The translations under genes and the position numbers were made by a program. From Bacteroidales bacterium (GTDB lineage: Bacteria; Bacteroidota; Bacteroidia; Bacteroidales; UBA932), in contig JAFSQE010000011.1 of NCBI GenBank assembly GCA_017446775.1, positions 1-55,489 of the forward strand: DNA of 55,489 nucleotides. The letters run 5' to 3'. The notes under the pieces are model-generated. The model saw only the letters and a program-made list of their open reading frames with translations. It was not told the DNA's origin and did no database searches. Each line of letters starts with the position of its first letter. Position 1 is the first letter of the stretch. This document shows positions 30,959 through 50,100 of this stretch, one piece after another.

Positions 30959-31843
30959 TTATATGCCGAATAAATCCCGTGTCTGTCTGATATCAACCGC
31001 AAGCTGCTTGACCAGCATATCCACAGAGGCGAACTTTTGCTCGTCGCGCAGTTTGGCGCAAAAGTCACACTTGATGCCGAGGCCGTAAATCTCTTCGTCA
31101 AAATCGAGGATGTGGGTCTCTATCACCAGCGCCTTATCGTTGCACACCGTGGGGCGGAAGCCGATGTTGCAAACGCCGTAGTAGCTGCCCCCCTCAACAA
31201 AGACCTTCACGGCATACACGCCGCGCTCCGGTATCACTTTGAGCGGTTCGTAGAGCTGCATGTTGGCGGTGGGGAAGCCTATCTTGTGGCCGATGCCGTT
31301 GCCGGCGACAACCGCACCCTCCAGCCGGTATTCGTAACCCAGCAGCCTGTTTGCCCGCTCTATCCCTCCGGTAGCAACCAGATTGCGGATATAGGTAGAG
31401 CTGATGGTGTTGTACTGGTCGGATACGCTGCCCGCCTTTATGGTCATCAGCCCCAGGTCCTGCGCCACTGCTGTGACGTCGGTATTGAACTGGGTATTGC
31501 CCAGCCGGTGGTCGTATCCCACAATCAGCGCAGAGGCGCCTATTCTGCCGATGATATACTCCCGGATGAACTGCTCGCAGCTGACGCGGCTCAGTTCCCG
31601 GGTGAAGTCTATCACATGCACCTGGTCTACGCCGCACGCTTTCAGCCGCTCTTTTTTCTCTTCCAGGGAGTTGAGCAGCCGCAACTCGCGGGCATCCTGA
31701 CGGAGAACCCCACGCGGATGGGGCCAGAAAGTGACCACCGCACTCTCCGCCCCGCGCGCTTTTGCCGTCTGGCAGAGAGTGTCGATCACTTTGCGGTGGC
31801 CCAGGTGGACCCCGTCAAAGAAGCCTGTAGTCGCTATAACCAT
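30959..31843 (-). CDS. ribF: Bifunctional riboflavin kinase/FAD synthetase
   Basis: 294 residues. RibF makes FMN and then FAD. The N-terminal nucleotidyltransferase shows TTGFFDGVHLGHRKVIDTLC, GYDHRLGN and ISSTYIRNLV. The C-terminal kinase shows GNGIGHKIGFPTANMQL and YYGVCNIGFRPTV with ETHILDFDEEIYG. Its start overlaps the end of the glycogen fusion gene by 10 bp, so it is translated from the glycogen transcript. Confidence 0.95.
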   Translation of the reverse strand: MVIATTGFFDGVHLGHRKVIDTLCQTAKARGAESAVVTFWPHPRGVLRQDARELRLLNSLEEKKERLKACGVDQVHVIDFTRELSRVSCEQFIREYIIGRIGASALIVGYDHRLGNTQFNTDVTAVAQDLGLMTIKAGSVSDQYNTISSTYIRNLVATGGIERANRLLGYEYRLEGAVVAGNGIGHKIGFPTANMQLYEPLKVIPERGVYAVKVFVEGGSYYGVCNIGFRPTVCNDKALVIETHILDFDEEIYGLGIKCDFCAKLRDEQKFASVDMLVKQLAVDIRQTRDLFGI

Positions 31844-34800
31844 TTTACAAGTTCAAAGTCCTGGCGGTGAGCCATATCGGGGCTCTTTGCAAACATACGT
31901 GTCGCATACTGGTAGGTACCCACCTTGACCGGAGTGATGTCGGTGCGGTAGGTAGCCACGCAGTCTTCAAATTTAACAACTTCGTAGGGATGAACCTCGC
32001 GGATGTGGTATGCCCCCTTGCTGTCCTGCTCTGTGATAACGCATTCGATGCCGATCTCGTCCGGAGTAAGGCCTGCCAGATAGACTTCTGCCTCTGAGTA
32101 GTGCTGGTCGCCCAGTGCAAAACGCACTGCGCTGCCGTTGAGGTTGTCAAAGCGGCGGATCTCGATATCGGGCCATGCGCGGTACATACGCTTCTTCCAC
32201 TGCGCAATCTCGCGCGCCTTGAGAAAGTCTTTGTCGGTCATCCGTGCATAACGCTTGGCCAGAGGACGGTAATACTTCTCAAGATAGTCCTCCATCATGC
32301 GGTTGGTGGTAAAGTTGCATGCCACCTGTGCGATGGTGTTCTTGATATATTTGATCCACTCCGGCGAGTAATCCTTGTCCCAGTCCTTCTTGTAGAAGGC
32401 GGGTGCGATGTCGCCGGCGATGATGCTGTAGAGCATTGCAGAATCCAGGTCGTCCTGGAACTCCTGGTTCTCGTATGTGCGCTCCATGGGGAGAGCCCAG
32501 CCGGCCCCCTCCTTGTACCCTTCTACCCACCAGCCGTCAAGCACAGAGAAGTGCATCACACCGTTCATAACAGCCTTCTCGCCGCTGGTGCCGGAGGCCT
32601 CCTGGCGGCGGGTAGGGTTGTTCATCCAGATGTCCACGCCCTGTACCAGCAGCTTGGCCACGGTGATGTCGTAGTTGGGCACGAACACAATCTTGCCAAT
32701 GAACTGCGGCATCTTGGATATCTCCACGATATGCTTGATAAAGTCGCTGCCGGCCTTGTCGGCGGGGTGCGCCTTGCCTGCAAACAGGAACTGTACCGGA
32801 TGGTCGGGGTTGTTTACCAGCTTGTCCAGACGCTCCAGGTTGCGGAACAGCAGGGTGGCGCGCTTGTAGGTCGCAAAGCGGCGGGCAAAACCGATGGTGA
32901 GCACGTCGTTGCGCAGCGTAGATTTGATCTTGACAATCTGGCTGGGAGAGTAGTGCGCCGTGGATTTGGTGTCGGATATAGTCTTCTTGACATAGTCGAT
33001 AAGGCGTTTGCGCAGCACGCTGCGGACGTTCCATATCTCCTTGTCTGCAATCTTGTATATGTTGGAGAAGCACGATTTGTCATAGTGGTGGGTGGCGAAA
33101 GCCTTGCCAAACACCCTTGCGTGGATTGCTTTCCACTCAGGAGCGGTCCAGGTGGGGTAGTGGACGCCGTTGGTCACGTAACCCACGTTGACCTCCTCCG
33201 GCAGGTAGCCGGGCCACATTCCGGCCAGAATCTCCTGGCTCACCTTGCCGTGCAGCCAGCTTACACCGTTGATCCCCTGGGACATGTTGGCAGCCAGCAC
33301 GCTCATGCTGAACTTCTCGCCGCCATCGTTGATATTGTAGCGGCCCAGCCCCATAAAGGTATGCCAGTCAATCTTGATGCGGGCGGGGAACTGCCCGAAG
33401 TAGACGCGCATCATATCCTCGCTAAAGAAGTCGTGGCCTGCCGGCACGGGGGTGTGGGTGGTGAACAGCGACGAGCTGCGTACCACCTCCAGCGCCTCTG
33501 CAAAGGTGAGGTTGTCGTTCTCTACATACATGCGGATACGCTCTATGCCGGTGAATGCGGCGTGCCCCTCGTTGCAGTGGTAGACCTCGGCCTGGATGTT
33601 CATCGCCTTGAGGGCGCGGATACCGCCGATGCCCAGCAGGATCTCCTGCTTGAGTCGGTTCTCCCAGTCGCCGCCGTAGAGCTGGTGGGTGATGGGACGG
33701 TCTTCAGGCATGTTCTCGTCAAAGTCGGTGTCCAGCAGATAGAGGTCGGTGCGGCCAACCTCCACCTTCCAGATGCGGATGTTGAGGTTGCGTCCCGGCA
33801 TCGGAACAGATACCGTTAGCCACTTGCCATCCTTGTCCAGGACGGGCTGGGCCGGCGATTCGCGGAAGTTCTGCGGGTCGTACGATGCTATCTGGTCGCC
33901 GTCGCCGGACAGATACTGGGTGAAATAACCGTATTTGTAAAGCAGACCCACGGCGGTGAGGTTTACCCCCATGTCGCTGGCCTCTTTAAGGTAGTCGCCG
34001 GCCAGGATACCCAGACCGCCGGAGTAAATCTTGAGCGATGTGTCAAGGCCGTATTCCATGCAGAAGTAGGCAATCTTTGGCGACTTGCGCTGTGCCTTGC
34101 CCTTCATGTACTCTGTAAAGTGGCCGTGTACGGCTTTCAGACGGGCCATAAAGTCCTTGTCCTGCTCCAGCACCTTGTACTGTTCCAGCGAGATGCTGTC
34201 CAGCATCACAATGGGGTTGCCCTTGCTCTCCTCCCAGAGAGCGGCATCTATCGATTTGAAAAGGTTAATAGCCTCGTCGTTCCAGCACCACCATAGGTTT
34301 TTGGAGATATCCTCCAGCGCACTCAGGCGGCGGGGAAGGGAGCGGTTTACTACTATGCTGTTCCAGTTGGGGCGGTTTGCTATCTGCTTGCGGTAACCCT
34401 GGTCGCCGTCCTCCTGCAGGAGGGGGTAGGGTCCGAATTTCTCTATCACTTTATTTATTGCCATATCGTAGGCCGATTTGTAGAATGAAATGTTGTTTTC
34501 CCAAAGCGCAAGGAGCGATACCTCCTTTGCATTTGCGCTGCACTCGGCAGCCTCGTCGCCACTCATAGAGCCAAAGCTCTTGACAGCGGCGGCAACTGCG
34601 TCCACCACGTCGTTGTAGTTGAAGTCGTTGCGCTCTACGATGGTGACGCCCTTAAGCGGCTTGTTGCCGCTGTAACGCTCCTTTATCCAGAGGCCAAAGC
34701 CGGCCAGGGTGGTGGTCACCGTGGGGACGGAGAACGCCAGCGACTCCAGCGGGGTGTACCCCCAGGGCTCGTAGTAAGAGGGGAAAACCGTGAGGTCGGC

Positions 34801-36072
34801 TCCGGAAAGCAGAGTGATATAGCTCTGGTTAAAGATGCCGTCGTTGCCGTTCAGGTAGCTGGGCACAAAGAAAACGTCCACCTTGCGCTCCGGAGCGTTG
34901 TCCAGCCCCACATCGGAAAGATGACGGCGGACGCAGTCAAAATCGTCGGTAAGATAGTGGGTGACGTTGGTGGTATGCTTGTGTGCGGGGTTGGCGAGCT
35001 TCTCTACCAGATCCTTGTCGGGGCCGTTGTTGCCGCTGGGTACCATTATGAATGCCGCAACCGGCCGGGCGGGATTCTCGCGTGCAACCTTTGCCAGGGC
35101 GTCGATAAATACGTTGATACCCTTGGTCTCATATTCGTAACGGCCGCCTATCCACACAATCTCCGTTGCAGCCTCGTCGTATTTCTTGCCGCTCATCGCC
35201 GCAGCCACCTTGAGCAGGTTCTTGCGTGCGGCGGTGCGCATCTTTGCAAGCGCTTTCTTGTCGGGAGCAAAACTGCCGGCGATGCCGTTGGGGGTCACCA
35301 CGTCGGGCTCGCGTTCCAGCAGTATCTTGCACTCGTATGCGGTAAGGTCGCTAACCGTGGTGAATACATCGGCATTGTGTGCGGCCGCCTTCTCTACGGA
35401 ATGACGGTCGCTGACGCCGTATTCGCGGGCCATCGTGTCGCCGTTCATGGCGGGCAGCTCCTTGTAGAAGGGGATATGCTTGCTGGCCATGCAGCGCCCC
35501 ACGACGGTGGCGTGGGTGGTGAACACGGTGCCGATGGGCAGGCCGGTGCTCTTGAGATAGAGGATGCCGGCGCCCGCCATCCACTCGTGGAACTGTGCCA
35601 CGATTTTGCTGGAAGAGCGGATATAATAGCGGGAGAAGCTCTCTATCACCTTGCCGGAGGCGTATCCGAACAGGAACGACTCTATGTATTCCCAGTTGCC
35701 GTTGAGCGAATCAACGCCGTATTGCTCCCACGCCTTGGCGAATATCTGGTCTTTGCTGGTGATAAAGGTCTTGAAATCGACCAGTATCGCAATGGGCTTG
35801 CCGGGGATGTTCCAATGCCCTACGCGTACGCGCAACCCTTCGTGTGCGGCAAGCTCCCTCCAGGACTTGAAGAGGTCGTTGTCTACCGTGAATTCAGGAT
35901 TCTGACGGGTGTGCATCCACACGTCGGGTCCGATATGTATATGTCTGTCCTTTAATTCTTCGCTGAGATTAAGTGCTTTTGTGGCAAGTACAGTGTGAAT
36001 GCCGCCTACCTTGTTGCAAACTTCCCAGCTGACCTCAAACAGATAGTCCGGCATCGTCTTGTTGTCTTTCAT
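31834..36072 (-). CDS. Fusion of GT3 glycogen synthase and GT35 alpha-glucan phosphorylase
   Basis: 1412 residues. The N-terminal half (about 1-560) is a eukaryote-like GT3 glycogen synthase: LFEVSWEVCNKVGGIHTVLA at the start, ISRYYIRSSSKIVAQFHEW-like middle, and PSYYEPWGYTPLESLAFSVP with the catalytic Glu pair. The C-terminal part starts near 575 with a DUF3417 module (ISKNLWWCWNDEAINLFKSI) and continues as a short-type phosphorylase: IYSGGLGILAGDYLKEASDM, AEVYHCNEGHAAF and RRQEASGTSGEKAVMNGVMH. Lys1166 in that last block is the expected PLP lysine. So chain extension and phosphorolytic shortening share one polypeptide. Both halves look complete. It is 5 bp after the GH57 gene and overlaps ribF by 10 bp. 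Confidence 0.94.
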   Translation of the reverse strand: MKDNKTMPDYLFEVSWEVCNKVGGIHTVLATKALNLSEELKDRHIHIGPDVWMHTRQNPEFTVDNDLFKSWRELAAHEGLRVRVGHWNIPGKPIAILVDFKTFITSKDQIFAKAWEQYGVDSLNGNWEYIESFLFGYASGKVIESFSRYYIRSSSKIVAQFHEWMAGAGILYLKSTGLPIGTVFTTHATVVGRCMASKHIPFYKELPAMNGDTMAREYGVSDRHSVEKAAAHNADVFTTVSDLTAYECKILLEREPDVVTPNGIAGSFAPDKKALAKMRTAARKNLLKVAAAMSGKKYDEAATEIVWIGGRYEYETKGINVFIDALAKVARENPARPVAAFIMVPSGNNGPDKDLVEKLANPAHKHTTNVTHYLTDDFDCVRRHLSDVGLDNAPERKVDVFFVPSYLNGNDGIFNQSYITLLSGADLTVFPSYYEPWGYTPLESLAFSVPTVTTTLAGFGLWIKERYSGNKPLKGVTIVERNDFNYNDVVDAVAAAVKSFGSMSGDEAAECSANAKEVSLLALWENNISFYKSAYDMAINKVIEKFGPYPLLQEDGDQGYRKQIANRPNWNSIVVNRSLPRRLSALEDISKNLWWCWNDEAINLFKSIDAALWEESKGNPIVMLDSISLEQYKVLEQDKDFMARLKAVHGHFTEYMKGKAQRKSPKIAYFCMEYGLDTSLKIYSGGLGILAGDYLKEASDMGVNLTAVGLLYKYGYFTQYLSGDGDQIASYDPQNFRESPAQPVLDKDGKWLTVSVPMPGRNLNIRIWKVEVGRTDLYLLDTDFDENMPEDRPITHQLYGGDWENRLKQEILLGIGGIRALKAMNIQAEVYHCNEGHAAFTGIERIRMYVENDNLTFAEALEVVRSSSLFTTHTPVPAGHDFFSEDMMRVYFGQFPARIKIDWHTFMGLGRYNINDGGEKFSMSVLAANMSQGINGVSWLHGKVSQEILAGMWPGYLPEEVNVGYVTNGVHYPTWTAPEWKAIHARVFGKAFATHHYDKSCFSNIYKIADKEIWNVRSVLRKRLIDYVKKTISDTKSTAHYSPSQIVKIKSTLRNDVLTIGFARRFATYKRATLLFRNLERLDKLVNNPDHPVQFLFAGKAHPADKAGSDFIKHIVEISKMPQFIGKIVFVPNYDITVAKLLVQGVDIWMNNPTRRQEASGTSGEKAVMNGVMHFSVLDGWWVEGYKEGAGWALPMERTYENQEFQDDLDSAMLYSIIAGDIAPAFYKKDWDKDYSPEWIKYIKNTIAQVACNFTTNRMMEDYLEKYYRPLAKRYARMTDKDFLKAREIAQWKKRMYRAWPDIEIRRFDNLNGSAVRFALGDQHYSEAEVYLAGLTPDEIGIECVITEQDSKGAYHIREVHPYEVVKFEDCVATYRTDITPVKVGTYQYATRMFAKSPDMAHRQDFELVKWL

Positions 36073-40545: not shown

Positions 40546-40575
40546 CAAAGTTAAAAAAATCAGCGTCTAACCCAA
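40546..40575 (-). promoter_or_regulatory. Glycogen operon promoter
   Basis: Minus strand: TTG (40575 to 40573) inside the end of tsaB, 19 nt, TAACTTTG (40553 to 40546). This is a consensus match, 30 nt before the debranching-enzyme ATG. Confidence 0.75.
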
Positions 40576-41280
40576 GATTTTTTTCTTGCTTTTTCCGATT
40601 TCGAACTCCTTGAGATAGAATGGCTCCATATAGGCCACATCTTCAAACTCCCCGGCAAGGAATTTTCTGTATGCGAGCGGCGCCATAAACTCTGCCAGCG
40701 GGTTGCAGGGGGCAAAAAATGCGTTGCCGCCGCCAAGGATTCCGGCCGCTTTTTCGCAGCCGTTGCCGCAGAACAGCACGGACCCTTTTTGCAGCAGTCC
40801 GGCATAGGATTCGCCGTCGATAATCAGCGGGGCAATCTCGCCGCAGCGGGTGCCGCTACCATCGTACACGGCCTGGTAAACCTCCATCCGCCGGGCATCT
40901 ATCATCGGGACCACAAACATGGGGGAGGGGGCGCTTTCGCCCTGTTGGCAGATCCCTTGTGCCGCCAGCAAATCCAGGGTGCCGACCCCAATCAGGGGGA
41001 TGCCCGCCCCGAAGCACAGCCCCTTGGCCATGGAAACGCCTACCCTTAGTCCGGTATATGAGCCGGGGCCGCTGCTCACCGCCACCGCCGCGCAGTCTTT
41101 GACACACAGGCCGTTACGCTTTAAAATCTCCTCTGCCATAGGGGCCAGACGGGAGGTTTGCATTCGGGCTTGATCGGTAACTATGCTGTCCAGGGTGCTG
41201 GCGCCGCTGGCAAGCGCTACAGAGCAGATATCGGTGCTGGTTTCAAGGCACAGTATCAGGGGGTCTCTATTTGGGTCCAT
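40567..41280 (-). CDS. tsaB: tRNA t6A biosynthesis protein TsaB
   Basis: 237 residues. TsaB partners TsaD and TsaE in making threonylcarbamoyladenosine at tRNA position 37. The ASKHA N-terminal half shows LILCLETSTDICSVAL, AVAVSSGPGSYTGLRVGVSM and AKGLCFGAGIPLIGVGTLDL; VPMIDARRMEVYQAVYDGSG follows. Its ATG lies 14 bp inside the adaptor gene, so this housekeeping gene rides on the peptide-export operon. Confidence 0.94.
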   Translation of the reverse strand: MDPNRDPLILCLETSTDICSVALASGASTLDSIVTDQARMQTSRLAPMAEEILKRNGLCVKDCAAVAVSSGPGSYTGLRVGVSMAKGLCFGAGIPLIGVGTLDLLAAQGICQQGESAPSPMFVVPMIDARRMEVYQAVYDGSGTRCGEIAPLIIDGESYAGLLQKGSVLFCGNGCEKAAGILGGGNAFFAPCNPLAEFMAPLAYRKFLAGEFEDVAYMEPFYLKEFEIGKSKKKILG

Positions 41281-42430
41281 CTTTGATTCTTATTTTGTCC
41301 CCTTCTGCAAGGGTCTTGGTTATGAGCTGGTACGGCCCCGAAACAATCCGCTCGTCTGGCTCCACTCCGCCGGTAATCTCTATCCTGCTGAAGTCCTGGA
41401 TTCCGCAACTCACTTTTCTTAGGTGCACCCGCTGCTGCGGGTCAACAACCCAGAGTGTCTCGCTCCCGTCCCGGATCACAACCGCCTGCAAAGGTACAGT
41501 TAAAATATCATTTTTGGAACCGGTAGATATAACTGCCGATGCCGACATGCCCGGCAGCAGTCGCGCCGTGCCGCACGAGTCGATGCCAAGGCGCACCTCA
41601 AAGTCGGTCGTGGCCCCGTTAAGGTCGCCTCCGGAGGCCTTGAGCGCCATCTTGCTCACATGCCCCGCTATCGTCTCCGCAGGGAAGGCATCGGCTTTGA
41701 TGCGGGCCTTGTCGCCGGCGCTGATGCTGCCTATGTCGTGCTCGCCAACCTTTACCACCAGCTCCATCTGCTGCAGGTCGGATATGGTCATCATCTCCGT
41801 CCCGGCCATTGTGGCGGTGCCCACGACCCGCTCTCCTCCCTTTACCCCGATGTGGGTCACCGTGCCGCTTATCGGGGCGTATACCAGGGTCTTTTCCAGC
41901 TCGCTGCGGGCAGCCCTTAGCGAGGCCTCGGCCGCGGCAATCTGACATTCGCACTCCATGGCGCGGGCGAAAGCCGCCTCCAGCTCCAGGCGCGCCTGCT
42001 CTTTTTTTGCGGCAGGGGCGGCATCGCTCTCGCACAGTTGTTGCAAGCGGTTGTATTCCAGCTCTTTGAGCCTGACCTCGGAGCGCTGTGCATCCCTGGC
42101 CCGCGTGGCGCTGCCCAGGCTCGCCCGGCAGCGGGCGATGGAGAGCAGATAGCTCTCCTGCCTGATTTTTATCAGCAGATCCCCCTTTTGCACCGTATCG
42201 CCCTCCTCTACGCAAATCTCCACAATCTCTCCCGACACGTCGGGAGAGATTTTAACCTCCTTTACCGGACGGATCCTCCCGAAGACCGATGCGCTCTGTT
42301 TTATCTCGCCCCTTTGCGGGCATACCACCTCCGCCTCTGCCGGCTTCTCCCCGTTGGAGAGCAGCACAACCGCCACCAGAACCGAGGCGAGCACGATTCC
42401 CCACCATATCTTTTTACCTCTGCCAGCCAT
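41267..42430 (-). CDS. Periplasmic adaptor (HlyD/MacA/RND-MFP family)
   Basis: 387 residues. One N-terminal membrane anchor (IVLASVLVAVVLL, about 12-24). The lipoyl half-motifs are IKISPDVSGEIVEICVEEGD-like (about 60-80) and ELEKTLVYAPISGTVTHIGV (about 190-210), with a coiled-coil hairpin between them rich in Glu, Arg and Ala. A beta-barrel domain and MacA-like C terminus follow (DGSETLWVVDPQQRVHLRKV). Such adaptors bridge an inner-membrane transporter and a TolC channel. It overlaps the TolC-like gene by 17 bp and tsaB by 14 bp. With the C39 transporter in the same run, peptide export is the likely job. Confidence 0.92.
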   Translation of the reverse strand: MAGRGKKIWWGIVLASVLVAVVLLSNGEKPAEAEVVCPQRGEIKQSASVFGRIRPVKEVKISPDVSGEIVEICVEEGDTVQKGDLLIKIRQESYLLSIARCRASLGSATRARDAQRSEVRLKELEYNRLQQLCESDAAPAAKKEQARLELEAAFARAMECECQIAAAEASLRAARSELEKTLVYAPISGTVTHIGVKGGERVVGTATMAGTEMMTISDLQQMELVVKVGEHDIGSISAGDKARIKADAFPAETIAGHVSKMALKASGGDLNGATTDFEVRLGIDSCGTARLLPGMSASAVISTGSKNDILTVPLQAVVIRDGSETLWVVDPQQRVHLRKVSCGIQDFSRIEITGGVEPDERIVSGPYQLITKTLAEGDKIRIKDGPK

Positions 42431-43814
42431 CGTAGTAAAATTGAAGTAATTTCAGTTGGAAAAGATATTTGCAGCGGCACTGGATTCTCTCCAACTCGCT
42501 CTGTGCAAGATTGTCCGATGCCTCGAGCCATTCGAAAGACGATATCGTGCCAAGCTCGTACTCCTTGTCGCACAGGTGCATCCGCTCCCTGCACAGATCT
42601 TCCCGGGCGCAGAATGTCCGCTCCTGCTCCAAAAGCAGCCGGCACTGCCGCTGCATCTGCTCCAGCTCCATAAACGTCTCTTCTTCTGCCTGGCGCAGCC
42701 TGATCTCCGATAGCTCTTTCTCTGCCCTGGCCTGCGCCACCTTTGCCGCCGCCCGGCCACCGTCAAATACCGGAATCACCAGGCTCAGGGTGACGGAGGG
42801 GTTGCGGTTGCCATCTATCTGCTCTTTGAACGCCCCCGCGGCGGCATCGCTGTAGTAGCTGCCATAGGCGGCCGATATGCTCAAGGAGGGCATCATCGCC
42901 CCCCTGGCCGCTTTCAGGGCATATCCGGCTGCTTTTGCCGCTTCCCTGGCCGCCGCCACTTTGGGGGAGAGATATCCGGCGTCCGTTCCGGCGTCCGTGC
43001 CTACTGCCATGCCCGTCCCGTCCCCAGTCCAGGTGCCCGTTACGACCCCAGTCCCGCCGTCCTCCACTGTCAGAAGGCCCCGGTCGGAAGCTTCAAAACT
43101 CTCCGATGCCACCGCGCTGCAATCGCACCGGAACTCCTGCCCGCTCCCCGTAGGCTGCCGCAGCCGGCTCATCTGCGACGCCGCCTCTGCCTCTGCCTCC
43201 GCAATCTGGCTGCGGATGTCGGCAGCCTTGGCCTCCATCTCCAGGATGTCGGCCTGGGTACGCTCCCCGAGGCGCTGCTGCACCCTGGTCCGCTCTGTCT
43301 GCAGCACGATTGATGCATGCCGCTCTTTGAGCCGTTGGCAGCTCAGGGTAGATAGCACGCAGCCCAGGTAAGCCCTTGCTATATCGGCCTTTACCTCAAG
43401 GACGGCCTGCTTGAGATTGTCCTTTGCCGCCGATGCCAGGGCACGGTTCGCAGCCACAGTGTTGAGCCTTGCAAAACCGTCGAATATTGAAAACGATGCG
43501 CCGACAGAGGCGCTTGTCTGCCGCGTAAGCCTGTTTCTGACAATTACAAGTTCCTGCATATCGACGCTTCGTCCCCAATTGTAGTATTGATTGGCATACA
43601 GGCTAAGGCTGGGGAGCAGTTCCGAAACCGACTGCGCAAGCTGCGCCCGGCTCTTTTTAAGCTGAGCGGCGGCCAAAAGGACGCTTGCAGAGTGGCTGCA
43701 GGCATAATCTATGCACTGCTCCAGACTCCATACAGCATCCTGCCCGGCGGCGCCCACACAGCAGAATAACGCCAGAAATATCGTTGCAATCCGTTTCAAA
43801 TCCCCTTTGCCCAT
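42414..43814 (-). CDS. TolC-family outer-membrane efflux protein
   Basis: 466 residues. A signal peptide (IATIFLALFCCVGAAGQ) is followed by WSLEQCIDYACSHSASVLLA, the standard first TolC repeat, and LPSLSLYANQYYNWGRSVDM. The second repeat has AMMPSLSISAAYGSYYSDAA, PVFDGGRAAAKVAQARAEKE and a long coiled coil. Between the repeats (about residues 248-282) lies a Gly/Thr-rich insert such as GTGVVTGTWTGDGTGMAVG, not usual for TolC. The start is 17 bp after the second GG-peptide gene. Confidence 0.92.
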   Translation of the reverse strand: MGKGDLKRIATIFLALFCCVGAAGQDAVWSLEQCIDYACSHSASVLLAAAQLKKSRAQLAQSVSELLPSLSLYANQYYNWGRSVDMQELVIVRNRLTRQTSASVGASFSIFDGFARLNTVAANRALASAAKDNLKQAVLEVKADIARAYLGCVLSTLSCQRLKERHASIVLQTERTRVQQRLGERTQADILEMEAKAADIRSQIAEAEAEAASQMSRLRQPTGSGQEFRCDCSAVASESFEASDRGLLTVEDGGTGVVTGTWTGDGTGMAVGTDAGTDAGYLSPKVAAAREAAKAAGYALKAARGAMMPSLSISAAYGSYYSDAAAGAFKEQIDGNRNPSVTLSLVIPVFDGGRAAAKVAQARAEKELSEIRLRQAEEETFMELEQMQRQCRLLLEQERTFCAREDLCRERMHLCDKEYELGTISSFEWLEASDNLAQSELERIQCRCKYLFQLKLLQFYYDGWQR

Positions 43815-43831
43815 GCCGGTGCCAATGCCGG

Positions 43832-44008
43832 TTATTGCCCCTCAAATGCCTGGCGCCCCTTGAAAGAGAGCACTGCGATAATGCATTTCACCAGGAATCC
43901 GACTGCATAACCGATGTAGTACAGCGCATTCTGCGCATTCTTGTCTACGCCGCCCGTAACCAGGCAGCACTCTTGGATGGAAACAGGTTCCAGTACGATT
44001 GTTTTCAT
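43832..44008 (-). CDS. Short peptide with double-glycine leader (candidate bacteriocin/signal peptide B)
   Basis: 58 residues, read directly from the sequence. ATG 44008 is preceded by a strong GGGAGGAGGAACC ribosome-binding site. Residues 1-20 (MKTIVLEPVSIQECCLVTGG) resemble a C39 leader ending in GG, though only loosely. Cleavage there gives a 38-residue mature peptide starting VDKNAQNALYYIGYAVGFLV. It is hydrophobic with a GxxxG (GYAVG), one Cys, and about two net positive charges. GxxxG helix contacts are a feature of class IIb two-peptide bacteriocins. It lies 18 bp after peptide A and 17 bp before the TolC gene. Expression and activity are inference. Confidence 0.75.
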   Translation of the reverse strand: MKTIVLEPVSIQECCLVTGGVDKNAQNALYYIGYAVGFLVKCIIAVLSFKGRQAFEGQ

Positions 44009-44026
44009 GGTTCCTCCTCCCGCATC

Positions 44027-44218
44027 TTAAAACAAACTAAATCCGTCTTTGATCCCTTTGAGCAGGTGGGGAACATAATCGTCCAAAAAGTCGACGACCT
44101 TGCGGATTATGGCCAGAATGCCGCCCAGACTGAACTCGGCGGCGATGCCTCCGCAAATGCACAGCTCGGAAGAATTCAATCCCTCCAGAGCTAAGCCACA
44201 AATTCTTTCTTCTTCCAT
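44027..44218 (-). CDS. Short peptide with double-glycine leader (candidate bacteriocin/signal peptide A)
   Basis: 63 residues. The N-terminal 24 contain LNSSELCICGG, a good match to the double-glycine leader pattern (LSxxELxxIxGG) recognised by C39 peptidases. Cleavage gives a 39-residue peptide starting IAAEFSLGGILAIIRKVVDF. It is a long amphipathic helix (IIRKVVDFLDDYVPHLLKGI) with near-neutral charge and no Cys. A second GG occurs at residues 32-33. It is 65 bp after the C39 transporter gene. It may be a bacteriocin component, an intercellular signal or a precursor modified elsewhere. No homologue is claimed. Confidence 0.78.
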   Translation of the reverse strand: MEEERICGLALEGLNSSELCICGGIAAEFSLGGILAIIRKVVDFLDDYVPHLLKGIKDGFSLF

Positions 44219-44237
44219 AGTAATTTAGTTTAAAACC

Positions 44238-44287
44238 GTCTGCAAATAAGGGGTGTGCAGACTTCACCTCAGTGAATGCGCATTCAC
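44238..44287 (-). promoter_or_regulatory. Palindrome and hairpin between transporter and peptide genes
   Basis: GTGAATGC/GCATTCAC (44272-44287) is a perfect 16-bp palindrome across the transporter stop codon. Next on the minus strand, GTCTGCA and TGCAGAC (44262-44256 with 44244-44238) form a 7-bp stem with an 11-nt loop, followed by GGTTTTAAA. It could be a weak terminator, an RNA-processing site or an operator that separates peptide from transporter expression. Confidence 0.5.
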
Positions 44288-46350
44288 ATCTCTATGATAT
44301 TGTCCGCAATGGGAATCTCGTCTGCCTTGTGGGTAATCATCAGCACGGTCACATTGCGCTCTGTATTCTCTTTTTTTATCGCCGCCAGCATCTTCTCTCT
44401 GGAGACGGCATCCAGCGAATTGGTGGCTTCGTCGAGTATAAGTATGTCGGGGCGTCGGTAGAGCGCGGCGGCGATTGCGATGCGCTGTTTCTGCCCGCCC
44501 GAGAGCCGGCACCCGGCCTCCCCGGCAATGGTCAGCAGCCCCCGCGGCAGCTCGCCCAGCAGGCTCTCCAGCCCAAGGTCCACCAGCAGCCTGGCCACCC
44601 GCTCGGCATCGTAATCATCGCGGCTGCCGGTAATGTTGTAAAGTATCGTGTCGTCGAAAAGCCGCACATCCTGCGCCACTATCGTTATCTTTTGCCGCCA
44701 CTTCTTTAGGTCAAACAGCGCGATGTCCATCCCGCCCAGGGTAATCGACCCCTTTGCGGGGGTGTAAAGACGCATCGCCAGGGCTGCCAGGGAGCTTTTC
44801 CCGCACCCGCTGCGCCCCCTTATGGCGGTTATCTTCCCCGCCGGGACCGTGGCGCAGAAATTCTCCAGAATGTTCAGCGCGCCCGGATAAGAGAATGTGA
44901 TGTTGTTGAACACCAGATCGCCCGTCGCCGCAGCAGGGTCGCACCCCCTGACCGGTTCCTCTTCCAGGTCCATCACCTCGAACAGGCGGGCTGCAGAGAT
45001 CCGGGTCTGCGATATCAGGGAGGCGGCGCCGACCAGCTGTGCGAGCGGTGCAGAAAAAAACGATGTTATAGTGTAGAACCCGACCAGCGTGCCGACGCTC
45101 AACTCCCCCTCAAGTATGATTAAAGAGCCTGCCGACAGAAGCACCACGGCCAGTATCTTGGAGACTGTCTCGGCCGCAACGGAGAATGTCCCGGCGCTGC
45201 CGTTGCCCTTTACAACCCGCTCGCAAAGCGCGGTGTATTGCGCCTCGATACCTCTGGCGGCAGCTTGCTCCAGACCGGCATATTTGATGCTTTTTACCGA
45301 CGATATGCTCTCTATGCACCGTTGCTCGAACAGCGTCCCCTGGGCGATTATCTCCCGGTTGTACCGGTTGCCGGCCCTGGCTGCAAAGATGTAGATAAGG
45401 GTGTACACCGGTACAAACAGAAATGTGAGCAGCGCAAGATGGCTGTGGAAGGCGAACATGAGGCAAAAGGCGGCCAAAAGGGTAAAAACGCTTATGGCTA
45501 TGGACGATATCCCCTCGGTTATAAACCGGCGAACCGTATATGCATCGCCGATGCGGGAGTTTATCTCCCCGGCGCTTCTGGTGCTGAAGAAAGCCACAGG
45601 CAGTCTGAACAGGTGAGAAATGTAGGAACTGATAACCTTCAGATCGATACCTGTGGCTGCGGCCAACAGAGTGTTGACCCTTAATTTACCGATTAGGAAA
45701 GCAAGAATAGAAAGAAACGCCATTGCCGCGGCCGGCCACGCTATGCGCGAGGCGTCGCCCGCGGGAATGACTTTGTCTATGAAGTATTGCAGAAACAGCG
45801 AGAAGCTGATTCCGACAAGTATGTAAAGCAGCGATAAGAGGATAGAAGATACGATCTGTGCGCGGTACAGGCTGAACAGCCTGTGCAGACGTGCGGCGGT
45901 GGATAGGGTGTTGTCGCCCGGGGCGAATCCCTTGCCGGGGGTTATCACCACCAGATATCCGCTCCAGAGCTGTTTCAAACGCTCCTTGTCCATCTTTATT
46001 ATTTTGCCCCTGGCCGGATCCATTACCGTTGCCTGCTTCTTGGATACCGTGCACAGCACCACAAAGTGCAGTTCGCCCTCTTCTGTGGTGATATGCAGTA
46101 TTGCCGGCAACTGCTCAATCGATATCGCGTCCAGATCTTTGCCCTTTGATTTATATGGGGAAGCATCCAGGTTCACCGCCCGGCAGCCGTCTATTATCCC
46201 TTTTATAGTGGTGCCGCTCACAGAGGCGCCGCACTCCTGGCGTATGGCGGCCAGGGGCAGCGCAAGCCCATAATATCGCGCGATGGCGGCGATGCATGCC
46301 ACCGCACAGTCGCTGCGGTCGTGTTGCTTTATCGCTTTTAGTCTTGACAT
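44284..46350 (-). CDS. Peptidase-containing (C39) ABC transporter
   Basis: 688 residues. The N-terminal C39 protease (about 1-135) shows IKQHDRSDCAVACIAAIARY with catalytic Cys15, HFVVLCTVSKKQATVMDPA with His95 and Asp111, so the triad is intact. A transmembrane domain covers about 160-430 (VSSILLSLLYILVGISFSLF). The ATPase has Walker A IRGRSGCGKSSLAALAM, signature LSGGQKQRIAIAAAL and Walker B DILILDEATNSLD. Such proteins cut double-glycine leaders and export the mature peptide. The two short GG-leader genes follow directly. It is 260 bp downstream of cvpA with a highly structured leader. Confidence 0.96.
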   Translation of the reverse strand: MSRLKAIKQHDRSDCAVACIAAIARYYGLALPLAAIRQECGASVSGTTIKGIIDGCRAVNLDASPYKSKGKDLDAISIEQLPAILHITTEEGELHFVVLCTVSKKQATVMDPARGKIIKMDKERLKQLWSGYLVVITPGKGFAPGDNTLSTAARLHRLFSLYRAQIVSSILLSLLYILVGISFSLFLQYFIDKVIPAGDASRIAWPAAAMAFLSILAFLIGKLRVNTLLAAATGIDLKVISSYISHLFRLPVAFFSTRSAGEINSRIGDAYTVRRFITEGISSIAISVFTLLAAFCLMFAFHSHLALLTFLFVPVYTLIYIFAARAGNRYNREIIAQGTLFEQRCIESISSVKSIKYAGLEQAAARGIEAQYTALCERVVKGNGSAGTFSVAAETVSKILAVVLLSAGSLIILEGELSVGTLVGFYTITSFFSAPLAQLVGAASLISQTRISAARLFEVMDLEEEPVRGCDPAAATGDLVFNNITFSYPGALNILENFCATVPAGKITAIRGRSGCGKSSLAALAMRLYTPAKGSITLGGMDIALFDLKKWRQKITIVAQDVRLFDDTILYNITGSRDDYDAERVARLLVDLGLESLLGELPRGLLTIAGEAGCRLSGGQKQRIAIAAALYRRPDILILDEATNSLDAVSREKMLAAIKKENTERNVTVLMITHKADEIPIADNIIEM

Positions 46351-46376
46351 AGTCGCAAATAATCCTCACAAGTAAT

Positions 46377-46535
46377 GACGGAACTTGGGAGAGCGGCCGC
46401 AGAGTCCGTGGGCGGCAGTGCAAACAAGCTTATCCCCACGATCGGCTTTATCGGCCCGGCTCCCCCGGGACTTTACCGGGCCGCTCTCCGCAATTTCCGT
46501 CCGCACAAATCTCCCCTTCGTCAAAGGCAAAGATG
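46377..46535 (-). promoter_or_regulatory. Candidate structured RNA leader of the C39 transporter gene
   Basis: On the minus strand, TTCCGTC (46495-46501) pairs with GACGGAA (46377-46383). Inside, an 11-bp perfect stem pairs 46388-46398 (GGAGAGCGGCC) with 46479-46489. Further hairpins lie within it (CCCGG with CCGGG near 46455-46470; CGTGGG with CCCACG near 46408-46440), giving a multi-branched fold of 125 nt. A near-consensus -7 box CATCTTTG lies at 46535-46528. The fold ends 26 bp before the transporter ATG. I could not match it to a known riboswitch, RNase P, tmRNA or SRP RNA. Confidence 0.55.
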
Positions 46536-46610: not shown

Positions 46611-47096
46611 TTAGAAAAGCGACTTCAAATACGGAAACGCAAATTTTACCAGGTCAAGAAGCGGTTTCCAGAAGCGGGATTCGGCGATTTTATCCTCCGG
46701 GATGAAATTCAGCAGGTCGTTGGCAGAAGTCAGTATGAATATCAGCGTGCCGATGATAAGTGAGGCGGTTGCGATTGCCACCACCATCCCAAGCAGGCGG
46801 TTGAGCCAGCCCAGCATCGCGACCTTGAGCACCTTCTCTACAATCTTGCCAATCAGGCTTAACCCCAGCGCCACGGCGATAAAGATAACGGAGAACGATA
46901 TGGCCTTGACCCAGAACGGCTCCAGAGCCCATTTTTCTGTTATCCATTGCCCCACCGGGGCAGAGAAGCGGATACTCAGGGCCAGCCCCAGCGCTATCAC
47001 GCCAAAGGCCACCAGCTGCTTTACGAATCCGTTCTTTAGTCCGAACACGATTGCGGGCAGAAAACAAGCCAGAATGATGAGGTCTATCGTTCCCAT
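46611..47096 (-). CDS. cvpA: CvpA-family membrane protein
   Basis: 161 residues with four hydrophobic segments (LIILACFLPAIVFGLKNGFV; LVAFGVIALGLALSI; AISFSVIFIAVALGLSLI; MVVAIATASLIIGTLIFIL). GLKNGFVKQLVAFG is the family signature. CvpA was first linked to colicin V production and is widely conserved with an unclear envelope role. An 8-bp stem (TCTCAAAT/ATTTGAGA, about 46566-46588) lies after its stop. It is divergent from ileS. Confidence 0.9.
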   Translation of the reverse strand: MGTIDLIILACFLPAIVFGLKNGFVKQLVAFGVIALGLALSIRFSAPVGQWITEKWALEPFWVKAISFSVIFIAVALGLSLIGKIVEKVLKVAMLGWLNRLLGMVVAIATASLIIGTLIFILTSANDLLNFIPEDKIAESRFWKPLLDLVKFAFPYLKSLF

Positions 47097-47166: not shown

Positions 47167-50100
47167 ATGAGTTTTACCGAGTATAAGAGTCTGGATTTGG
47201 TTGAGGTTAACCGGTCGGTGCTGGATAAGTGGCGCAAAGAGGATGCTTTCAAGAAGGTTTTGAAGCTGCGCGAAGGGGCGCCGAAGTTCATATTTTTCGA
47301 AGGGCCGCCGTCGGCCAACGGTATGCCGGGCATCCACCACGTCATGGCCCGTTCCATCAAGGACGCCATCTGCCGCTACAAGACCCAGAGCGGTTTTCTG
47401 GTAGAGCGCAAGGCTGGCTGGGACACCCACGGGCTTCCGGTAGAGCTGGGCGTAGAGAAGATGCTGGGCATCACCAAAGAGGATATCGGTAAAAAGATAT
47501 CTGTAGACGAATACAACCACGCCTGCCGCAGGGAGGTGATGAAATACACCGCAGAGTGGGTCAACCTCACAGAGCGCATCGGCTACTGGGTGGATATGGA
47601 CAACCCGTATATCACATACGACAACGCCTATATCGAGACCCTGTGGTACCTGCTCAAGGATATCTATAAGAAGGGATATCTCTACAAGGGATACTCCATT
47701 CAGCCCTATTCGCCCGCTGCGGGTACCGGTCTGAGCACCCACGAGCTCAACCAGCCCGGTTGCTACCGTGACGTTAAGGACACCACCGTTACGGCGCAGT
47801 TCGGGGTGGTACGCAATGCGGTATCCGAAAAGCTGTTTGCGGATACTTCTCTGCCGGTTTACTTTCTGGCATGGACCACGACCCCCTGGACGCTCCCTTC
47901 CAACACGGCGCTCTGCGTTGGGCCCAATATCGATTATGTGCGGGTGGAGAGCGTGAATCCATACACCAAGGCCCCCGCGGTGTATGTGCTGGCAAAGGCG
48001 CTTGTCGCTGCCCACTTTAACGACAAGAACCCCTTCCGCGTGCTGGACGGCGAGTTCAAGGGGCGCGAGCTGGCAGGCATCGCATACACCCAGCTCTTCC
48101 CCTGGGTCAACCCCGGCGAAGGCGCTTTCCGCGTGATTACGGGCGATTACGTTACCGTAGAAGACGGTACCGGCATCGTGCACATCGCCCCCACGTTTGG
48201 TGCCGACGACGACAAGGTGGCAAAGATTGCCGGCGTCCCGCCCATGCAGATGGTAGATGCTGCCGGCAACCGGATGCCTATGGTAGACCGCACCGGCAAG
48301 TTCTTCCGCCTGGAAGACCTCGACCCCGCCTTCGTGGCTGCCAACGTCAATGCCGACCTTTACGGCGTATATGCCGGCCGCTACGTCAAGAATGCATACG
48401 ACGCGACCCTCGGTCCCGACGACGCCACCCTTGATATCGACCTTTGCGTAGACCTCAAGCAGCAGGGCAAGGCCTTCAGGATAGAGAAGCACGTCCACTC
48501 TTACCCCCACTGCTGGCGTACCGACAAGCCGGTGCTCTATTACCCGCTGGATTCCTGGTTCATCAAGACCACGGCGGTGCAGGAGCAGATGGTGGCGCTT
48601 AACAAGACCATTACCTGGAAGCCCGAATCCACCGGGAGCGGCCGCTTTGGCAAGTGGCTGGAGAACATCCAGGACTGGAACCTCAGCCGCAGCCGCTACT
48701 GGGGCACTCCGCTCCCTGTCTGGCGCACAGAAGACGGCCGCCAGACCAGATGCATCGGCAGCGTAGAGGAGCTTTACAACGAGCTTGACAAGGCCGTGGC
48801 AGCCGGCGTGATGCCCAGCAACCCGCTGCGCGACAAGGGCTTTGTGCCGGGCGACTATTCAAAGGAGAATTACGACCGCATCGACCTCCACCGCCCCTAT
48901 GTGGACAGCTACTATCTGGTAAGCGACGACGGGCAGAAGATGACCCGCGAGACCGACCTTATAGATGTCTGGTTCGATTCCGGATCGATGCCCTACGCCC
49001 AGGAAGGTCTCAGGAATATCGGCAAGCCGCAGTTCACCCAGTCTGCAGACTTTATCGCAGAGGGTGTCGACCAGACCCGCGGCTGGTTCTACACGCTGCA
49101 CGCAATCCACACCATGGTTAGCGGCACTTGCGCCTTTAAGAATGTCATCTCCAACGGCCTGGTGCTGGACAAGAACGGCAACAAGATGAGCAAGCGCCTG
49201 GGCAACGCCGTGGACCCGTTCAAGGCTCTGGACAACTATGGCGCCGACGCCCTGCGCTGGTATATGCTCACCAACGCGCAGCCCTGGGACAATCTCCGCT
49301 TCGACGAGTCGGGGGTAGACGAAATCCGCCGCAAATACTTCGGGACGCTCTACAATACATATTCGTTCTTCGCGCTCTACGCCAATGTAGACAAGTTCGA
49401 TCCAAGTGCGCCCAAGGCGCCGCAAAGCGCCCTGCGCGAGATAGACCGCTGGCTGATATCGCTGCTCAACACCCTTATCAAGGATGTTACGGCTGCATAC
49501 GAAGATTACGATATCACCACCGCCGGCCGCCTTATCCAGGACTTTGTGTGCGACAACCTTAGCAACTGGTATGTCCGCCTCAACCGCAAGCGTTTCTGGG
49601 GTGGTACAATGGGCAGCGACAAGCAGGCCGCATATCAGACATTGTACCAGGCACTCAAGGTGGTAGCGCAGCTCTCTGCGCCCATCTCCCCGTTCTACAG
49701 CGACCAGCTCTGGCGCGACCTCGACCCCCAGGCAGGCAGCGTCCATCTTACCATGATGCCCAGGGCAGATGAAAGCCTGATAGATGCCGATCTCCAGGAG
49801 CGGATGCAGCTCGCGCAGCAGAGCACCTCCATGGTGCTGGCACTCCGCCGCAAGGTGGGCATCAAGGTTCGCCAGCCGCTTGCAAAACTGGTGATTCCGG
49901 TGCTCAATGCCCATCTCCGCAGCCAGTTCGAGCAGGTAGAGCAGCTGGTTCTGGGCGAGGTCAATGTAAAGCAGGCAGAGTATATCACAGACACCACCGG
50001 CCTGATTACCAAGAAAATCAAGCCCAACTTCAAGACCCTGGGCAAGAGATACGGCAAGCAGATGAAAGAGATTGCCGCATTCTTTGCCGCTATGGACCAG

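Follow-up and report, generated by a model that had tools for sequence, protein, structure and literature searches.

What do two short genes enclosed in a peptide export operon of a Bacteroidales bacterium encode, and what is their product exported for? The window analysed here is a whole stretch of 55,489 nucleotides (contig JAFSQE010000011.1 of assembly GCA_017446775.1, GTDB lineage Bacteroidota, Bacteroidales, UBA932). Its minus strand carries a C39 peptidase-ABC transporter followed by two genes with double-glycine (GG) leaders, named here pepA and pepB, a TolC-type channel and a periplasmic adaptor. A first-pass annotation, made from the letters of the window, had proposed a two-peptide bacteriocin or a signalling system. 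Comparison with relatives confirms the gene set that it described and makes the observation stronger than was claimed: the peptides are a real, conserved substrate pair accompanied by an export set, with which either function is plausible. We infer that the locus probably encodes a vertically inherited two-peptide bacteriocin of class IIb-like type in Gram-negative Bacteroidales. As far as the searched libraries show, no such family had been described from Bacteroidales.

The peptide genes and their conservation

The cassette is composed of five genes:

44284..46350, minus strand, C39 peptidase-ABC transporter (688 residues; Pfam C39, ABC membrane and ABC ATPase domains)
44027..44218, minus strand, pepA (precursor of 63 residues; 24-residue leader ending in CGG, 39-residue core, GxxxG formed by G55 and G59)
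43832..44008, minus strand, pepB (precursor of 58 residues; 20-residue leader ending in TGG, 38-residue core, GxxxG formed by G33 and G37)
42414..43814, minus strand, TolC-type outer-membrane channel (466 residues; OEP, PF02321)
41267..42430, minus strand, periplasmic adaptor (387 residues; RND_mfp model TIGR01730 above cut-off, type I HlyD model TIGR01843 below)

As annotated at first pass, these genes lie head to tail. Gaps of 65 bp (transporter to pepA), 18 bp (pepA to pepB) and 17 bp (pepB to the TolC gene) are followed by overlaps of 17 bp between the TolC and adaptor genes and 14 bp between the adaptor gene and tsaB. All six frames from the transporter to tsaB are intact. Shine-Dalgarno sites are rarely used in Bacteroidota; a purine-rich, Shine-Dalgarno-like GGGAGGAGG precedes pepB (44009-44026), and the sequence upstream of pepA is merely A/T-rich. 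An antisense open reading frame (ORF) crosses the pepA/pepB region at 43685-44194.

The reality of the two short genes was examined in relatives. The 60 genomes searched all give some transporter match, and 36 loci from 35 of them, chiefly the best transporter matches, were examined together with the window. Two GG ORFs in fixed order are present in 29 of the 29 orthologous loci where the 3' end of the transporter gene is on the contig (window included), a count selected on the transporter and unbiased by peptide matches. Two further loci (L053, L054) end inside the transporter, and six (L061-L066) contain other C39 transporters, 26-34% identical, without the two-peptide arrangement. Loss of the short ORFs beside a kept transporter, or breakage of their frames or of the GG, had been named at first pass as evidence that would count against the peptides; no such loss was seen in the 29 loci, and the only departure is a pepB leader that ends in AG rather than GG in L204 and L205.

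A mechanical rule (two tandem ORFs starting with ATG, of 40-95 residues, with GG at residues 8-45 and a start within 600 bp) was satisfied by 88 of 92 loci of the family, duplicates and 39 loci picked through a pepA match included, by one of 48 other Bacteroidota C39-ABC loci and by six of 3438 random windows. Before this count, four of 96 family loci (L214, without transporter; L053, L054 and L085, with less than 500 bp after it) and six of 54 other Bacteroidota loci (less than 500 bp after the transporter) had been left out. The four family misses are L084 and L189, where the pair is present and the rule chose another start codon, and the AG loci L204 and L205. The single positive among the 48 (L097, a roe-deer Bacteroidales metagenome-assembled genome) has a different tandem pair of GG ORFs after its C39-ABC gene, the first with GFIVGLIAGALL.

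The nonsynonymous rate (dN) is lower than the synonymous rate (dS) in 36 of 42 core comparisons, which represent 21 locus pairs and are not independent; dS is saturated in the other six. The boundary between leader and core was placed at the first GG or AG beyond residue 8, a choice that sets it wrongly in pepA of L085-L087. The peptide cores are under purifying selection. That the short ORFs are chance or decayed frames beside a transporter with another substrate can be regarded as next to impossible: it is rejected by their presence in 29 of 29 loci, by dN below dS and by the random-window control.

The precursors, in which the slash indicates the expected cut, are PepA = MEEERICGLALEGLNSSELCICGG / IAAEFSLGGILAIIRKVVDFLDDYVPHLLKGIKDGFSLF and PepB = MKTIVLEPVSIQECCLVTGG / VDKNAQNALYYIGYAVGFLVKCIIAVLSFKGRQAFEGQ. 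An alignment of 28 members reveals that M1, G23, G24, G55 and G59 are invariant in pepA, and G19, G20, D22 and G37 in pepB. The GG-type leaders of the genes of 63 and 58 codons are borne out. In 42 more diverse members, some of them chosen by a rule that required GxxxG, pepA retains G24, G55 and G59 and pepB retains G20 and G37 (the pepA pick for L190 was a wrong ORF and was excluded from further use). A fairer count was obtained from 77 distinct pairs selected on GG only, in which two picks are wrong ORFs (pepB of L058, pepA of L181). A strict GxxxG occurs in 75 of 77 pepA cores (shuffle mean 18.2, maximum 31) and in 61 of 77 pepB cores (mean 15.9, maximum 26), while [GA]xxxG anywhere in the core occurs in 77 of 77 (mean 30.7, maximum 45) and 76 of 77 (mean 33.9, maximum 49), respectively; the sequences are related, so these shuffles yield no probability. 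The conserved place reads GxxxA in the pepA of L187 and in that of L215, and several groups of pepB have AxxxG there. The first-pass annotation had noticed the motif in one peptide; it is carried by both. The second GG of pepA (residues 32-33) was rejected as a cleavage site, as it is not conserved. AlphaFold2 predicts a helix at residues 23-55 of pepB (mean pLDDT, the predicted local distance difference test, 74.6; block 31-40 at 96) and, with modest confidence, at residues 31-62 of pepA (mean pLDDT 65.7).

From these elements the following pathway can be proposed. PepA and PepB would be made as precursors with GG leaders, and the C39 domain would cut after the GG, at residue 24 of pepA and residue 20 of pepB. 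The ABC transporter, the adaptor and TolC would then carry out mature peptides of 39 and 38 residues, with calculated monoisotopic masses of 4289.39 Da (PepA) and 4193.21 Da (PepB). Outside the cell, each peptide would form one helix, and the GxxxG faces would bring the two together in a target's envelope, the target probably being a related Bacteroidales.

Concerning family models, searches of Pfam and NCBIfam with the window peptides and 42 members of each gave nothing above cut-off. Below threshold, the lactococcin G-beta model matches three of 42 pepA (best E 0.0012) and one of 42 pepB, and the lactococcin G-alpha model one of 42 pepA. The best NCBIfam match of pepB (E 0.0055) is to a heptaprenyl diphosphate synthase model, to which the PDB search also pointed; it was set aside as biologically implausible. 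No profile search of the PDB gave a convincing match: the best, at E 0.0068, was a TetR regulator, and plantaricin J was matched across the GxxxG region at E 0.98. The GG-Bacteroidales natural product precursor model, which we take to be NCBIfam TIGR04149, has no match at E<=10 with the window peptides or at E<=1 with 42 members of each. A literature search found no description of the two-peptide system, most subscription papers and preprints being outside its reach.

Distribution, export machinery and chromosomal site

Among 199 genomes of the family, hidden Markov models matched pepA in 114 and pepB in 113 at E<=0.01, usually with one match per genome for each peptide. Both peptides were found in 112 genomes from 11 genera: g11 (19 genomes), g39, g6 and g1 (18 each), g4 (17) and g45 (13), and, sparsely supported, g36 (3), g2 and g42 (2 each), g37 and g5 (1 each). 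Single matches concern pepA in G100 and G175 and pepB in G111, the latter inside a frame of 422 residues; neither peptide was matched at this threshold in 85 genomes, these three being counted on one side. In G100 (genus g41), the contig segment L285 (1-6241) contains the end of cvpA, an adaptor-like gene upstream, an orthologous C39-ABC, pepA, and TolC at the contig end. In an order-wide sample, four of 393 genomes match pepA at E<=0.001: three belong to the same family, and the fourth match is weak (E 6.5e-4, in a frame of 133 residues, another family). This search missed G030 despite its locus (L060), so divergent members can escape it. No record of the plasmid collection matches either window peptide.

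The named relatives that share the arrangement are Candidatus Equibacterium (L069), Ca. Cacconaster (L072) and Ca. Coprenecus (L084-L088, L091), the last of which would belong to the same family, judging from similarity to the g6 peptides. The carriers are uncultured gut bacteria; record titles give sheep, goat and deer gut as sources, and names suggest horse and chicken.

No protein of the 2.0 Mb genome other than the transporter matches Pfam C39 at E<=0.001. The Cys15/His95/Asp111 triad, described as intact at first pass, is invariant in an alignment of 19 transporters. C39-ABC, adaptor and TolC in one operon form a tripartite C39 secretion system of the colicin V type. In a sub-clade of the genus of the window (L043-L046, L048-L050 and L023; L070 and L078 repeat two of its members), TolC and the adaptor are missing at the locus and the transporter and both peptides are kept. 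Adaptors that are 28-29% identical were found elsewhere in six of seven of these genomes and in none of three controls, and TolC adjoins the distant adaptor in both loci opened (L251, L252); such pairs might serve this exporter. In L183 (G170, genus g4), transporter and both peptides are present, with no TolC, adaptor or TsaB within 8.2 kb downstream.

The cassette is bordered by the following elements:

46611..47096, minus strand, cvpA homologue (5' boundary of the cassette)
46351..46526, minus strand, putative structured leader in the interval between cvpA and the transporter (no Rfam family match)
40567..41280, minus strand, tsaB (TIGR03725; housekeeping neighbour overlapping the adaptor gene, 3' boundary of the cassette)

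On the minus strand the order is therefore cvpA, C39-ABC, pepA, pepB, TolC, adaptor, tsaB. The first-pass span, which began at 40567, had the five-gene set right and took in tsaB without mention. An isoleucyl-tRNA synthetase (IleRS) gene, named from sequence, starts at 47167 on the opposite strand. Elsewhere in the window, an ORF of 1412 residues lies at 31834-36072 (minus strand).

The order IleRS (in opposite orientation), CvpA, C39, pepA, pepB, TolC, adaptor, TsaB is found again in loci from each of the 11 genera. The cassette is not a local accessory cluster, a point missed at first pass, and occupies one cvpA-tsaB site across these genera. Departures unexplained by contig ends are CvpA and IleRS lying beyond TsaB (L058, L059, L207), CvpA not found (L060, L080, L083, L196) and no TsaB (L187). 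The tsaB neighbourhood was also inspected in seven peptide-less genomes of the family. In four of them (L255, L256, L259, L264) TsaB comes immediately after CvpA; the two are about 300 bp apart in L260, and L257 is arranged differently. Three genomes of other families have no CvpA near tsaB. Since four genomes that lack the cassette still have cvpA adjoining tsaB, cvpA seems to be a neighbour of the cassette and no part of it; its position on the far side in L058, L059 and L207 agrees with rejecting it as a dedicated component. The seventh peptide-less locus, L258 (7602-11691, G032), keeps CvpA-TolC-adaptor-TsaB without C39 transporter or peptides.

Over 63 loci, distances correlate with those of IleRS at r = 0.78 for C39, 0.76 for cvpA and 0.64 for TsaB, and at 0.38 for TolC and 0.41 for the adaptor, none of these values being reached in 999 permutations. 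C39 distances track those of IleRS, and the transporter has therefore been inherited with the chromosome. TolC and the adaptor have apparently undergone occasional exchange or loss.

Upstream of the transporter, a conserved promoter-like CATCTTTGC was detected after cvpA. The Bacteroidota -7 consensus is TAnnTTTG, and no exact copy was found in nine loci. In twelve loci of the genus (window, L032-L041 and L053), the element is followed on its 3' side by a leader of 154-196 nt that holds a conserved ACGAAGGGA...GACGGA block and a long hairpin. Folding against shuffles gave z below -2 in 10 of 20 leaders (median -1.95), and the consensus fold contains six pairs, two with compensatory changes, with thin support from the alignment. 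RF01693 was not found in the genome, and a simple scan of the transcribed strand found no terminator in two loci. The leader may be a regulatory RNA.

A candidate immunity gene and competing explanations

The description of the locus as self-contained is right for maturation and export, of which the set in the window is complete; in the sub-clade without TolC and adaptor it does not hold, nor does it extend to an immunity or sensor gene, none being recognised in the operon of the window. The closest to an immunity gene was found in genus g45, and had been missed at first pass. A PF02517 (CPBP/Abi) gene of 235-246 residues (E 5e-18 to 1.5e-14) follows pepB at about 40-60 bp in four of four inspected loci, between pepB and TolC:

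L203, 6716-7456, CPBP/Abi (PF02517)
L204, 7073-7792, CPBP/Abi (PF02517)
L205, 8216-8935, CPBP/Abi (PF02517)
L206, 7158-7865, CPBP/Abi (PF02517)

PF02517 is present at the locus in seven of seven g45 genomes searched. G019 and G008 have such a gene some 9 kb further downstream, on the strand of the cassette, and PF02517 genes occur somewhere in all 20 genomes searched. The g45 proteins display ELLFR or ELIFR (ExxxR), FSLCH (FxxxH) and a later H. In the available text of PMC6957408, ExxxR, FxxxH and a further H are the motifs of Abi immunity proteins, and that of PMC6422914 gives Abi proteins as proposed to confer bacteriocin immunity. The CPBP/Abi gene is the strongest functional pointer, though in one genus only, and its product may protect the producer in g45.

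Several points weigh against a bacteriocin. Antibacterial activity is a prediction from the genes, and AlphaFold confidence is modest for the peptide helices. Matches to class IIb models are sporadic, fall below threshold and carry little weight, some unrelated families matching at similar E-values. Bacteriocins are usually patchy and mobile, whereas this system tracks the chromosome and is near-core, and its cores evolve conservatively with no signs of an arms race. No immunity gene was recognised in the operon of the window, and PF02517 is at the locus in none of 13 genomes searched from eight other genera; immunity types beyond PF02517 were not searched for. The missing immunity gene is not fatal, because bacteroidetocin producers have no immunity protein identified and inhibit themselves, according to the available text of PMC6671954.

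The same distribution lends itself to other explanations. A two-part pheromone sensed by the producer's own kind, its specificity set by divergence at the species level, would suit vertical inheritance, purifying selection and the usual single match per genome, and the putative structured leader could make expression conditional. We consider this unlikely: no sensor kinase or regulator was seen in the operon of the window (the rest of the genome was not searched for them), and two long hydrophobic GxxxG helices are unusual for pheromones. The peptides could also stay on or near the producer as matrix, adhesin or envelope layer, and GG proteins exported by a C39 transporter and needed for biofilm exist (EbfG1-4, in the available text of PMC4997328). 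A housekeeping role of this kind would agree with the near-core distribution and with no immunity gene having been recognised, but two unlike GxxxG-helix peptides and the CPBP/Abi gene of g45 better fit a paired membrane-active toxin, and the surface role too appears rather improbable. If the peptides are toxins, they might act by contact on the producer surface, like CdzC/CdzD of Caulobacter, which follow the same logic of Gram-negative type I export of two small GxxxG proteins (PMC5380434, as far as its available text goes). The single GxxxG found here, with charged residues in pepA (GIKDG), differs from the extended zippers of CdzC/D, no CdzI-like ORF was recognised, and vertical inheritance contrasts with Cdz-like systems often acquired horizontally; a contact-dependent toxin is accordingly very unlikely.

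The secreted class IIb-like bacteriocin is thus the explanation retained. Tentatively, it can be extended to a possible history in which an ancestral class IIb-like weapon became a near-core trait at cvpA-tsaB in 11 genera, mostly without a dedicated immunity gene (self-protection residing in the target or envelope) and gated by an undescribed structured RNA leader. If the bacteriocin is real, gut Bacteroidales would have a second, two-peptide architecture, retained by entire genera, and two-peptide logic would not be confined to Gram-positives. About 75 distinct natural peptide pairs are available, and the tolerance of a near-core toxin pair without obvious immunity gene becomes a question. 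If the peptides are not toxins, the locus represents a conserved export-dependent trait without assigned function.

Comparison with known systems

Colicin V is exported by CvaA-CvaB-TolC. The present system resembles the export of colicin V and class II microcins (described in the available part of PMC10352776) by its C39-ABC, periplasmic adaptor and TolC and by an adjoining cvpA homologue; unlike in colicin V export, the adaptor matches RND_mfp and not the type I HlyD model. EbfG1-4 of Synechococcus, four GG proteins exported by PteB with a function in biofilm, are alike as GG microproteins leaving through a C39 transporter, a likeness drawn from description only (PMC4997328, available text).

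According to the accessible text of PMC5380434, CdzC and CdzD have extended GxxxGxxxG zippers of small hydrophobic residues, the immunity protein CdzI has three transmembrane segments, and Cdz-like systems are often horizontally acquired and patchy. The Cdz system (CdzABCDI) is alike in being Gram-negative, with type I secretion and two small GxxxG proteins. Contrary to it, the window peptides and alignments contain no extended zipper, no patchiness is observed, and no CdzI-like protein was recognised; the intervals between the transporter, peptide and TolC genes of the window have no room for another ORF of 35 residues or more on that strand.

The bacteroidetocins, relatives of the single-peptide class IIa, are what the available parts of PMC10352776 and PMC6671954 report as class II bacteriocins of Bacteroidales. 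They consist of a single Cys-bearing peptide accompanied by a protein with five transmembrane segments and usually a thiol oxidoreductase (PMC6671954, same limit), and share with the present system the order Bacteroidales, a double-glycine peptidase ABC transporter and a GG leader. Here, in contrast, there are two peptides, the pepA core of the window has no Cys and the pepB core has one, and both the thiol oxidoreductase and the five-segment protein are absent from the operon. Without the Cys pair and the accessory genes, identity with the bacteroidetocins is rejected, as the first-pass annotation had argued.

Known class IIb cores have about 40 residues. Lactococcin G, plantaricin JK and carnobacteriocin XY resemble the present system by two different adjacent leader peptides with GxxxG or A variants, by a dedicated exporter with an accessory protein and, in one genus here, by a CPBP/Abi gene. 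They differ from it by the Gram-negative tripartite TolC export and the vertical, near-core distribution seen here. According to the accessible text of PMC6957408, leaders are present in class IIb peptides, as is GXXXG or one of its A/S variants. The two genes lie side by side, the GG leaders are accompanied by a C39 exporter, and GxxxG or a variant is found in both cores; no family model was matched above cut-off. The system is called class IIb-like, and not a member, because a dedicated immunity gene, a defining feature of class IIb, was looked for and not recognised in the operon of the window. The class IIb pattern (PMC6957408) is a pair of helical peptides exported together, each some 40 residues long and with a conserved GxxxG position.

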